Source of the DNA: Myxococcales bacterium | GTDB lineage: Bacteria; Myxococcota; Myxococcia; Myxococcales; Myxococcaceae | Direction of reading: 5' to 3' | DNA: 64,000 bases | Assembly (NCBI GenBank): GCA_030681895.1 | Contig: JAUXRI010000287.1 | Span: forward strand, 1-64,000 | In this document: piece by piece, positions 21,643-24,883 of the stretch | Position numbering within the stretch: position 1 is the stretch's first letter | Layout of the letters: each line of letters begins with the position of its first letter | The notes under the pieces: generated by a model | The model's input: the letters and a program-made list of their open reading frames with translations, nothing else | What the model was told of the DNA's origin: nothing | Database searches by the model: none | Made by a program: the position numbers and the translations under genes

Positions 21643-23292
21643 GTGAGCTCACGTCCCCTCGTCGCCGCCGTCGTCGCCATCTTCTTCAGCGCATGTCCTT
21701 CCGTCAGCGGGCCTGGGGGAGAGACCGGGCCCATCGGGCCACAAGGTCCAGTCGGCCCTGCTGGTGCGCCGGGCGCGAAGGGTGACCCGGGCGCGGCCGG
21801 CGCGATGGGAACTCCGGGTGCCACGGGCCCGATGGGTACTCCAGGAACAGCAGGGGTCGCAGGGCCAGCAGGGCCTTCAGGAGCGCCAGGTGCGCAGGGC
21901 CCCGCAGGTCCGCAAGGCATTCAAGGCCCCGCCGGCGCGGTGCTGGTGCTCGACGGTGGCGTCGTCGTCGGCCCCGCTGGTTCATCGGTGGTGGTGACGC
22001 CGGTGACGGCAGGCGGAGCCCCATGCCAGTTCGGCGGCCTTCGCGTGACGCAGGTCTCTGACGGCGGCATCAGCCACGTGTGCAACGGCGCTCCGGGTGC
22101 CATGGGCGCGCAAGGCCCGGCTGGCGTCGCGGGCCCCGCTGGCCCCATCGGTGGTTCGGTGACGGCGTCAGTGCTGCCTCCGTTGAGCCCGGCGTGCATG
22201 ACGGGCGGCGTTCAGGTCGCGTTCCCCGATGGCGGCTCGGTCGCCATCTGCAACGGCGCAGCGGGGCCACAAGGCGTCGCAGGGCCGATGGGTGTCGCAG
22301 GTCCGCAAGGAGCGCTGGGGCCAGTTGGGCCGATGGGCGCGCAAGGCGTCGCGGGGCCGATGGGCGTCGCGGGTCCGCAGGGAAACCTGGGCCCGGTTGG
22401 CCCTGCCGGCGCGGTGGGTCCCGCTGGCGCCGCAGGTCCCACGGGCGCACCGGGGCCGCAGGGTCCTCCTGGCCTCTTGCTGCTGCCCGATGGCGGCGTG
22501 CCGGGCGGCTTGTTCGGCTCGGAGCTCGGCGTCTTCGTCGGCTTCACCTCGATGACGTCGACCGGCAACCTCGGCGGCCGCGTCGGCGCGCACGCGATGT
22601 GTCAGGCGCAGTTCGGCGCCAACGCGTGGTTCTGTCACGGCACGGAGTACGTGAACTCGGCAGCGCAGGGAGCTCCGGTGGGCAGCGCGTGGATTGATTG
22701 GAGCGCCTCGGAGAACGGCGCAGCAGTCACCACCGGCGGGCTCAGCGCAGGCCGCTCGGGCACGCCCAACGGCAGTTGCACCTCGTGGACGTCGAACAGC
22801 CCGGCGCCCGGCAACCTCACCGTCACCGTCTTCGGCGAGCTCCTCTCGAATGCTTCGGGGGTGGATTGTTCGCAGCAGCGCCCCGTTGCCTGTTGTGCCG
22901 GCGCGCGGCCGACGCGGGTTCGTGGGCCGACGACGGCGACGTACACCGGCAACCTCGGTGGGCGCGTTGGCGCGAACGTGAAGTGCCAGCTCGAGTTCGG
23001 ACCGGCGGCGCACTTCTGCCACGCGTCGGAGTACCTGCGCGCAGCCTCGTCGCTCCAGATGCCAGTCAGCGGAGCGTGGATTGACTGGTCTGCCTCACCC
23101 GTCGACGGCAGCGCCATCGTCGCCGGAGTGGTGAGAGCCAGCCGCTCGGCCACTCCCAACGGCTCGTGTACTTCGTGGACGTCGAATAGCCCGGCGCCCG
23201 GCAACCTCACGGTCACCAGCGCCGGAGAGATTCTCAGCAACCGCGCCGGCGTCGATTGCAGCCAGGCCCGGCCCATCGCCTGCTGCGAGTGA
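21643..23292 (+). CDS. Collagen-like lipoprotein with two C-terminal DUF1554-like domains
   Basis: 549 aa from a GTG that begins a lipoprotein signal (lipobox FSAC, Cys18). Residues about 22-290 hold three blocks of Gly-X-Y triplets, rich in GPAGP and GPMG, split by two short non-collagen modules (each with DGG and one or two Cys). Two homologous domains follow, about 295-419 and 431-549, each with [10 protein letters not shown], an FCH-x-x-EY element, [25 protein letters not shown] and a CC near its end. This pattern matches DUF1554, known from Leptospira and Myxococcota. A collagen-like triple helix implies a trimeric surface stalk presenting the tandem domains. The large frame upstream of 21643 is not coding. 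Confidence 0.85.
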
Positions 23293-23296
23293 CGCG

Positions 23297-23617
23297 CTAC
23301 GCAGTCGACGTCAGCTTCAGCCCGAGAATCGACACCACCAGCAACACCACGAAGACGGCGCGGAGCGGTGGCATCGGCTCTCCGAAGAGCACGACGCCGC
23401 CGATGGTGGCGCCGAGCACGCCGATGCTGACCCACACCGGGTACGCCGTTCCAATCGGCAGGGTGCGGGCCGCCTGCGCGAGCAAGCCGAGGCTCGCGAC
23501 GATGGCCACGCCGGTGATGACGGACGGCAGCGCGCGCGTGAAGCCGTGCGTGTATTTCAGGCCGAGCGACCAGACGACTTCGAGCACACCCGCGAGCACC
23601 AGGACGAACCAGGCCAT
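23297..23617 (-). CDS. sugE: SMR-family exporter, SugE/Gdx (guanidinium) type
   Basis: 106 aa with four membrane helices and the SMR landmarks: the essential Glu in the first helix (AGVLEVVWSLGLKYT), the TRALPS turn, and the LPIGTAYPVWVSIG signature. The W-S-x-G-L-K-Y-T-x-G context after that Glu is typical of the Gdx subtype that exports guanidinium, rather than QacE/EmrE drug pumps. The ATG at 23617 has GGAGG seven bases upstream. A longer frame to 23686 is read through the riboswitch and rejected. Regulation by guanidine is supported by the RNA motif next to it. Confidence 0.92.
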   Translation of the reverse strand: MAWFVLVLAGVLEVVWSLGLKYTHGFTRALPSVITGVAIVASLGLLAQAARTLPIGTAYPVWVSIGVLGATIGGVVLFGEPMPPLRAVFVVLLVVSILGLKLTSTA

Positions 23618-23630
23618 GTGGAAACCTCCA

Positions 23631-23672
23631 CGGCCCGTCGTTCCTGCCTGGTACGGGTCGGCCTCGTCAGGG
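23631..23672 (-). promoter_or_regulatory. Guanidine-III-like riboswitch (ykkC-III) in front of sugE
   Basis: Read 5' to 3' from 23672 to 23631. The element has the conserved core CUGACGAGG, then a CCCGUACC segment and CAGGAACGACGGG. P1 forms by CCUG with CAGG. A pseudoknotted P2 forms by CCCGU with ACGGG, extended by CG with CG past one mismatch. This matches the published class III guanidine aptamer nearly position by position, with one base fewer in the last loop. It ends one base before the GGAGG of sugE, so control of ribosome access is likely. Confidence 0.82.
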
Positions 23673-23719
23673 CTCAGCGTGAGCACGCACTCGATAGCAA
23701 CGAAGGAGCGCCACGCCCA

Positions 23720-24883
23720 TCAGTTCGGCCGCAGCCCCTCGAGCGCCTGCGCAACCGCCGCGCTCTCGTTGATGGTGCGCTGGCTCATCGCCGAGTCACG
23801 CCCGAGGTAGCCGAACGCACGCAACGCCTTCGGGTCATCCTTCACCGCGTCGATGCGCGACAGGTCGAACCCCGGCGCCGTGAACAAGTCAGCGTGCCCG
23901 GTCGAGTCGACGCGATGAAACGTCTCGGCGTTCCGGCGCGCGCGGCTGGCGACGTGGCAGCTCGCGCAGTCGATGGTCTTCGGTGACGAGCGCTCCGGGT
24001 GCTCGATGCGCAGGGCCGACGTCAGCGCCTTGTTGAGCGTGCGCGGGTCGAGCAGCCGCATCGACGTCTCAGAGAGCAGCGTGTCGAGCGTGTCGTTCGG
24101 CGCGCCGGGAATGAGCGCGCCGTTGCGGAACGACTCGGTGCCGAACTCCTGAACGGCCTGCACCTTGAGCGTCGGCAGGCGGGGAATCAGGTCGTCGACG
24201 AACGCTCCACCGACGACGTTGAACGCGCCGAAGCGCCACTGCCGGCCCTGCTCGTCGACGCTCATGAAGGCCACGCGCGAGAGCGTCGCGAAGCCACACG
24301 CCTCGAGAATCATCGCCTTCACACGCCCATGGTACGGCCCGTCGAGCCCCTGCCGCCGCATCACCGGGTGCACGTCGAGCGCGCCGTCGGTCATCGTGCC
24401 GGCTGATGCATCGAGCGCGAAGAGGTGCTGCACCACGCCTGCGAAAGCCGCGGCGTCGAGCGAATAGAAGAGGTGCACCGTCGCGTCGCGCGTGGTGAGG
24501 GCGCCGTCCTTCACGAAGACGGGCTGGGCGACGAGGCGCACCTGCTTCACGCACGTGGGCGCTGCGGGAGGTGCCGAGCCGGGGAAACACGGGTCGACGC
24601 GCGCCGAGATGACGCGCAGCTCGCGGTAGAGCCCGTCGCCGGTCTGCTTCTCCACCAGCAACGGCAGCCCGTCGTAGAGCCGCCTCGGCAACAGCGGCCC
24701 CATCATGCCGTCGTCGGCCATCGAGAGGAGCGAGGCCTCCTTCCCAGCGACCGGCAGCGGCATCAGGAATGAGACGTCATTCAGGTCGAGCCGCGGACCG
24801 GTGGGGGGCCCCTTGCCGGGGAGGACGGGCGCGGCTCCGCAAGCAAGCAGGACGGCAGACAGGGCGGCGACGACGAGACGCAT
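23720..24883 (-). CDS. Mono-heme c-type lipoprotein
   Basis: 387 aa. Lipoprotein signal with lipobox VLLAC; the ATG at 24883 is chosen over one 60 bases upstream because it starts the signal directly. One heme-c motif, CASCH, lies near residue 303, followed by conserved-looking HRVDSTGHADLF. The N-terminal 290 residues are beta-rich with a DPCFPGSAPP-type Cys pair and are not recognised. Likely a periplasmic electron-transfer or sensor protein specific to myxobacteria. The axial sixth ligand cannot be chosen from sequence. Confidence 0.75.
   Translation of the reverse strand: MRLVVAALSAVLLACGAAPVLPGKGPPTGPRLDLNDVSFLMPLPVAGKEASLLSMADDGMMGPLLPRRLYDGLPLLVEKQTGDGLYRELRVISARVDPCFPGSAPPAAPTCVKQVRLVAQPVFVKDGALTTRDATVHLFYSLDAAAFAGVVQHLFALDASAGTMTDGALDVHPVMRRQGLDGPYHGRVKAMILEACGFATLSRVAFMSVDEQGRQWRFGAFNVVGGAFVDDLIPRLPTLKVQAVQEFGTESFRNGALIPGAPNDTLDTLLSETSMRLLDPRTLNKALTSALRIEHPERSSPKTIDCASCHVASRARRNAETFHRVDSTGHADLFTAPGFDLSRIDAVKDDPKALRAFGYLGRDSAMSQRTINESAAVAQALEGLRPN

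Follow-up and report, generated by a model that had tools for sequence, protein, structure and literature searches.

A divergent guanidine-III-type riboswitch candidate in front of a Gdx-type SMR exporter gene of a Myxococcales bacterium

What controls a short SMR exporter gene in a Myxococcales bacterium, and does the RNA in front of it belong to a known class of switches? The question arises from a window of 64,000 nucleotides, the whole stretch of DNA analysed here, in which an SMR-family gene of the Gdx type (106 aa, ATG start) lies on the minus strand at 23297..23617. The original prediction was a guanidine-III-type riboswitch directly controlling this gene, and sequence, structure, gene context and recurrence before SMR genes all argue for such a putative control. 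We describe here a 41-nt variant guanidine-III aptamer with the topology of an H-type pseudoknot at 23631..23671 (minus strand), recognized by a sub-threshold match to the Rfam family RF01763 and by a model (R2) from which the window copy was left out. Read from 23671 to 23631, the minus strand is CCUGACGAGGCCGACCCGUACCAGGCAGGAACGACGGGCCG; then follow UGGAGGUUUCCAC and the ATG at 23617, which places the end of the aptamer 13 nt before the start codon. The conserved blocks ACGAGG, CCGTACC, CAGGA and ACGGG, on which the first assignment was based, are all found here in this order. We consider it probable that the leader is a divergent guanidine-III riboswitch that serves as a translational ON switch of the exporter gene.

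Rfam applied at gathering thresholds gives no match in the 64-kb window. With a lowered threshold and 23580-23760 scanned, RF01763 matches on the correct strand with 23.9 bits (cut-off 36); the match extends from 23689 to 23629 on the minus strand, covers the full model length and has an E value of 0.0023 for 181 bases and 4227 families. The Infernal check that had been suggested thus returns the expected site and strand, but stays under the curated threshold. Taken alone, the 23.9-bit match is suggestive, and SMR relatives were therefore collected for comparison. An SMR search of 60 genomes, including that of the window, gave a match at E 1e-10 or better in 24 of them, and the named SMR loci, taken from one genome scan, represent 80 of 283 relatives. 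A pattern scan of the SMR loci revealed two types of element upstream of the genes, ordinary guanidine-III and the type found in the window, here termed the variant. Eight complete copies of the variant occur in seven of 195 Myxococcota genomes, namely that of the window (G000), G009, G012, G037 (twice), G069, G086 and G093. All eight aptamers precede an SMR gene, which is intact in seven cases and truncated in one. With the lowered threshold RF01763 matches every one of the eight at the right place and on the right strand with 19.0-26.6 bits, a range that chance matches to other families also attain in the same scan, and none of them reaches the gathering threshold of 36 bits. Hence, the variant is consistently detected and consistently below the cut-off. 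The match stays sub-threshold because the element is a divergent variant, with a changed linker, an extra nucleotide in P2 and a U-A pair in P1. Ordinary copies behave differently: in one set of 20 loci RF01763 accepts nine (39.5-60.2 bits), every one of the ordinary type, and in a further 20 it accepts five with 37.7-56.8 bits, one of them from Streptomyces. Altogether 13 ordinary Myxococcota copies pass, 11 of these at 50.5-60.2 bits. Among the first 20 loci, L016, L018 and L020 also fail RF01763. A scan of the window's own genome with RF01763 listed 16 matches of at most 18.9 bits, the window site not being among them; this is not counted against the element, because 150 of 4166 candidates were scored.

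That the site exceeds chance becomes clear with models of the variant itself. A 34-position pattern (three free positions, up to three mismatches), derived from the window copy and its relatives, has a single match in the window and none in any of 100 shuffles. The covariance model R2, built from the seven copies at other places, scores the window site at 79.3 bits, and its next best match in the 9.8-Mb assembly has 22.1 bits. A second model, R1, built from all eight copies, gives these copies 70.7-85.4 bits by construction; the next match among those listed for the 195 genomes is a ninth copy in G009 (G009:C328) with 36.2 bits, which is ended by its contig. R1 matches at E 0.1 or better are found in at least 123 of the 195 genomes, nearly all of them weak, with 28 candidates scored per genome. 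Matches of 27-30 bits in G071, G005 (twice) and G011 were taken as chance, as parts of the core are missing in their alignments. The exact pattern was absent from viral contigs. Among plasmids, an E limit of 10 gave 32 records, and coverage of the 81-nt query stayed under 80% in all of them; of the 20 listed, the one with the lowest E value (0.01) is a match inside an annotated Streptomyces gene.

The anatomy of the element (all coordinates on the minus strand) begins with a hairpin, P0 (GCUCA/UGAGC, 23672..23684), immediately 5' of the aptamer. P0 is predicted in all eight variant copies, with the stem GCUC/GAGC in six, GGUC/GACC in G093 and three pairs (-1.1 kcal/mol) in G009, and the RF01763 model likewise has a 5' stem at this position. 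The P1 5' strand CCUG (23668..23671) pairs with the 3' strand CAGG (23647..23650). Judged by pairing potential, all four P1 pairs are standard in all eight variants, the third pair being U-A in seven copies and C-G in G093, compared with G-C in the 14 ordinary copies parsed; these 14, used for the anatomy, were selected with a 10-nt linker. The conserved ACGAGG (23662..23667) takes the part of the third strand in a comparison with the T. fusca RNA, whose residue roles are known from PMC5696562, and in this comparison the equivalents of the ligand contacts are 23666 for C6, 23665 for G7 and 23654 for G17. These three and the equivalents of the core residues A5, A19, C20 and G29 carry the same letter in all eight variants, where the equivalence of G29 depends on the alignment of the shortened linker. 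The ligand of the aptamer is very probably guanidine. P2 is formed by the 5' strand CGACCCGU (23653..23660) and the 3' strand ACGGGCCG (23631..23638); pairing and folding indicate that the latter is common to the predicted OFF hairpin discussed below, which makes it the candidate switching strand. In the window P2 has seven standard pairs and one A.C mismatch. Both stems and the pseudoknot had been claimed to match the known class, which holds throughout for P1 but for P2 at seven of eight positions. The same proportion is seen in each of the eight variants: the A.C mismatch sits at the sixth position in seven copies, while G093 has A-U there and A.C at the eighth. Twelve ordinary copies (L013, L014, L015, L017, L022, L034, L039, L125, L136, L139, L141 and L147) have a C.A mismatch in P2, at a position where L119 and L121, from another family of the order, have U-A and where the T. 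fusca RNA has the pair C15-G38 (PMC5696562).

The second linker, CAGGAACG (23639..23646), is 8 nt long, compared with 10 nt in T. fusca (residues 25-34). The length of 8 nt is kept in all eight variants, with the sequence nAnGAACG in seven and CAGGCACG, ending GCACG, in G093. None of them has the 10-nt second linker with GACAAG before ACG; this GACAAG linker, written in capitals in the Rfam consensus, is shortened in the variant. L021, a copy that passes RF01763, has a 9-nt linker ending CACG and looks intermediate between the ordinary and the variant linker. The MAFFT alignment A2, in which the linker is misaligned between variants and ordinary copies, was left out of the counts.

Conservation could also have another cause, namely a recently transferred leader without RNA function, or an N-terminal coding extension. 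An in-frame GTG at 23686, 23 codons 5' of the ATG at 23617, is indeed present and would give an ORF of 129 aa. The caution in the original prediction, that an annotation might set the start too early by 23 codons, is justified as such, and the extension (23618..23686, minus strand) is most likely untranslated, its frame being unconserved in relatives. The distance from ACGAGG to the ATG in the eight copies is 49-53 nt and all three frames are used; hence, the upstream extension is not a conserved coding region. Moreover, the PDB relatives of the exporter begin at the corresponding Met. What would suit a leader without RNA function is the small number and similarity of the complete copies, the frame that is open upstream in the window, and the weak covariation within the eight, with one pair changed on both sides and 60 of 500 shuffles scoring as high. 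Against it stands the pattern of divergence. Between the window and the five other typical intact copies, the aptamers are 93-100% identical, the proteins 73-81% and the fourfold-degenerate sites 54-67%, and the aptamer identity is in part a product of selection because the search pattern fixed 17 of the 41 positions; at the 24 positions not fixed, at most three differ from the window in any of the five copies. Among the typical copies, without the near-identical pair from G009 and G012, the fourfold-degenerate sites are 46-74% identical, compared with 93-100% for the aptamers. For the window and G093 the values are 83% for the aptamer, 68% for the protein and 55% for the fourfold-degenerate sites. 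A leader without RNA function is therefore very improbable and already largely refuted, and selection on a variant aptamer is the reading we follow.

The distribution of the variant fits a small accessory cassette whose parts come and go together. Of seven genomes of the genus (completeness 85-100%), one has a PF00893 gene. The sibling genome G001 has both flanking genes in unchanged order and lacks the cassette; between these genes, at the colinear locus (L176, 1190-1499), 54-bp units are repeated in tandem 4.9 times (1220-1470). Some copies show particular features. L148 (G086:C1:13676500-13678200) is an intact variant aptamer before a shortened SMR gene, whose frame leaves the family sequence at about residue 52, and the same genome also holds an ordinary guanidine-III element with its SMR gene (L125). 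The ninth copy, L171 (G009:C328:3076-3126), stops at a contig end and has small differences from the other G009 copy; it is either a second copy or an assembly fork. In the window, a collagen-repeat protein (PF01391; 21061-23292, plus strand) is encoded in convergent orientation to the SMR gene, the two ORFs lying 4 bases apart, and by eye its C-terminal part resembles one domain repeated twice.

The proteins under putative control of the variant were compared as well. A tree of SMR proteins was calculated from 41 of 46 ids (L028, L035, L036 and L105, in which no motif was found, and the dropped L032 were left out; the truncated L148 stood outside the 46). Seven variant-controlled proteins fall inside one well-supported set of 11, which also holds SugE of E. 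coli and Bordetella and the myxococcal L029 and L030, and the SMR proteins under ordinary copies lie outside this set. On this tree 2 changes suffice for the variant label, whereas shuffled labels require 6.6 on average. A single clade of variant-controlled proteins is not rejected (p-AU 0.263), and the SugE proteins of E. coli and Bordetella fall among them. This association raises the question whether the ligand of this guanidine-III descendant has changed, in step with the separate SMR lineage, to a substituted guanidine such as methylguanidine or some other small guanidino compound. Such a shift would agree with the changed geometry of linker and P2, with the tracking of an own SMR lineage and with G012 and G086, which carry variant and ordinary elements together. 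In addition, methyl- and aminoguanidine already fit into the binding pocket of ordinary guanidine-III RNAs (PMC5696562), and a guanidine-IV variant with evidence of a different specificity is known (PMC9788692). That variant, however, differed in a binding nucleotide and in the associated gene (PMC9788692), whereas the C6, G7 and G17 equivalents remain unchanged in all eight copies considered here and the controlled gene family is the same. We therefore regard a shifted ligand as unlikely. Likewise unlikely is a broader proposal in which the variant, sub-threshold in Rfam, forms a separate compact guanidine-III subclass. Its rebuilt linker would alter affinity or ligand preference, the latter for example in favour of a substituted guanidine, and it would travel as a switch-plus-exporter cassette of about 400 bp together with an SMR lineage of its own, accompanied in some genomes by an ordinary guanidine-III cassette. 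Guanidine itself remains our preferred ligand.

The gene downstream has the signature of a guanidinium exporter, with one peculiarity. It matches PF00893 with 88.1 bits (cut-off 23.7, E 5.8e-25); the best NCBIfam family is the SugE equivalog NF008512 with 123.9 bits, just under its cut-off of 126, and among PDB relatives Gdx-Clo ranks best, with an E value of about 1e-33 and an alignment that begins at residue 1. Like Gdx-Clo and SugE, with which it aligns end to end, the window protein has all five of E13, W16, S42, Y59 and W62, the roles of which, as well as the GxxxAxxxG motif, are taken from PMC7695847; W16 is described there as conserved in Gdx and replaced by Gly or Ala in the Qac subtype. 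The exporter features claimed for the gene are thus present in these residues, but the first TM3 GxxxAxxxG motif (PMC7695847), placed by us at 56/60/64, is altered. The window reads G56-P60-S64 instead of the usual A60 and G64; among the 42 proteins compared, including that of the window, A60/G64 occurs in 35 and G64 in 41. P60 and S64 being unusual, we infer exporter activity from the family and the key residues, and transport may be altered by these two substitutions.

How could the aptamer act on the gene? The best clue to the mechanism, absent from the original prediction, is that the P2 3' strand is shared with a hairpin at the start codon. The leader carries a Shine-Dalgarno sequence, GGAGG (23625..23629, minus strand), and folding predicts an OFF hairpin, CGGGCCGUGGA-GGUU-UCCAC-AU-GGCCUG (23610..23637, minus strand), around this site and the start codon, with A and U of the AUG in a bulge and the G paired. 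The segment from the P2 3' strand through codon 4 folds with -17.2 kcal/mol (z -3.7), and none of 300 dinucleotide shuffles is as stable. In seven of the eight variants a corresponding, unusually stable hairpin is predicted (z -1.9 to -5.0). G093, the most diverged copy, has a weaker hairpin of unremarkable stability (z +0.2), and the stability in 14 ordinary copies is unremarkable too (z -1.2 to +0.9). When the window leader was folded at five lengths, the outer six pairs had a probability of 0.84-1.00 and the inner five of about 0.41-0.51. Since the outer stem takes the P2 3' strand, hairpin and pseudoknot are mutually exclusive. Blocking the aptamer bases in the folding leaves A and U of the AUG 94-100% unpaired, compared with 43-49% otherwise, and raises the unpaired fraction of the G from 0% to 21-97% depending on length, with 21-22% at the two shortest leaders. 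The Shine-Dalgarno is not freed in these foldings: at least one of its bases is at most 7% unpaired at every leader length, and in the three longest leaders its first three positions are unpaired to 1-15%, compared with 0-59% when nothing is blocked. The five inner pairs retain -4.9 kcal/mol as a hairpin of their own. No terminator-like site was found in 23200-23900, and control by transcription termination was dropped. Because the AUG is freed in the folding and no terminator-like site is present, we propose a translational ON switch that would act mainly via the start codon. With -15.6 kcal/mol the OFF hairpin exceeds P2 alone (-8.5 kcal/mol) in stability, and switching would therefore need co-transcriptional folding together with the ligand. 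A consensus scan found no promoter; read by eye, a weak possible extended -10, TGC-TATCGA (23691..23696, minus strand), lies 15 nt before GAGCCC, a spacing as for a -10-like hexamer in G012.

In the proposed cycle, CGGGCC of the P2 3' strand would pair, without guanidine, with GGCCUG, made up of the final G of the AUG and the codons that follow. The closed hairpin around Shine-Dalgarno and start codon would keep translation of the exporter poor. Guanidine, once accumulated, would bind the pseudoknot at the C6, G7 and G17 equivalents and keep the P2 strand tied up in the triplex; with its outer half thereby opened, the hairpin would release the start codon. The exporter would then be made and guanidine pumped out. 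Switching and transport we infer, the homology and conservation of the aptamer, the exporter family and the two exclusive helices being read from the sequence. An ON direction via the start-codon hairpin appears likely to us. The hairpin might also be a bystander, with guanidine bound and control exerted by other competing structures or by the proximity of the pseudoknot to the ribosome-binding site. This would account for a hairpin that is statistically ordinary in G093 and in the ordinary copies and for a Shine-Dalgarno that stays paired in the folding model, and it would be in line with the T. fusca RNA, where the relevant passages of the source describe a general propensity for secondary structure and no such hairpin (PMC5696562). 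Seven variants, however, keep the hairpin despite substitutions, insertions and deletions between Shine-Dalgarno and AUG, and we hold control without it to be possible, yet clearly the less probable course. The start-codon hairpin as the switch remains our preferred mechanism. The predicted exclusion between P2 and this hairpin offers a concrete, testable switching model for guanidine-III RNAs.

Where does the element stand among known systems? RNAs of the ykkC-III type are on record for Actinobacteria and delta-Proteobacteria, where they precede emrE and speB genes (PMC2864571), and a myxobacterial example is therefore expected in kind. A described variant of the guanidine-III class was not found in the open-licence literature, as judged by titles and the openings of abstracts. 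Automatic annotation overlooks the lineage, since all eight copies lie under the Rfam cut-off. If guanidine is bound, a riboswitch class that ranks among the smallest would tolerate a shorter linker and a longer P2 strand around an unchanged pocket. With the ordinary myxococcal copies (L013, L014, L015, L017, L019, L021, L022, L034, L039 and others) the variant shares gene type, position and core; in contrast to it, these copies pass Rfam and control SMR proteins of other branches, outside the set of 11. Compared with guanidine-III itself (ykkC-III, RF01763; T. fusca, PDB 5NWQ, PMC5696562), the H-type pseudoknot, the P1 of 4 bp, ACGAGG and CGUACC, the seven core residue equivalents, the 5' hairpin and the position shortly before the ribosome-binding site of an SMR gene are the same. 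Different are the second linker (8 instead of 10 nt), the P2 5' strand, which is one nucleotide longer, the third P1 pair (U-A or C-G), the A.C mismatch in P2 and, in seven of eight variants, the start-codon hairpin sharing the P2 3' strand. For T. fusca, ON control via exposure of the ribosome-binding site has been called probable (PMC5696562). Formal membership in RF01763 is thus denied to the element by the Rfam cut-off and the linker, whereas its core residues, topology and gene context make it a divergent guanidine-III branch that would most likely work in the same way. It extends a known class of switches and is not a new kind.
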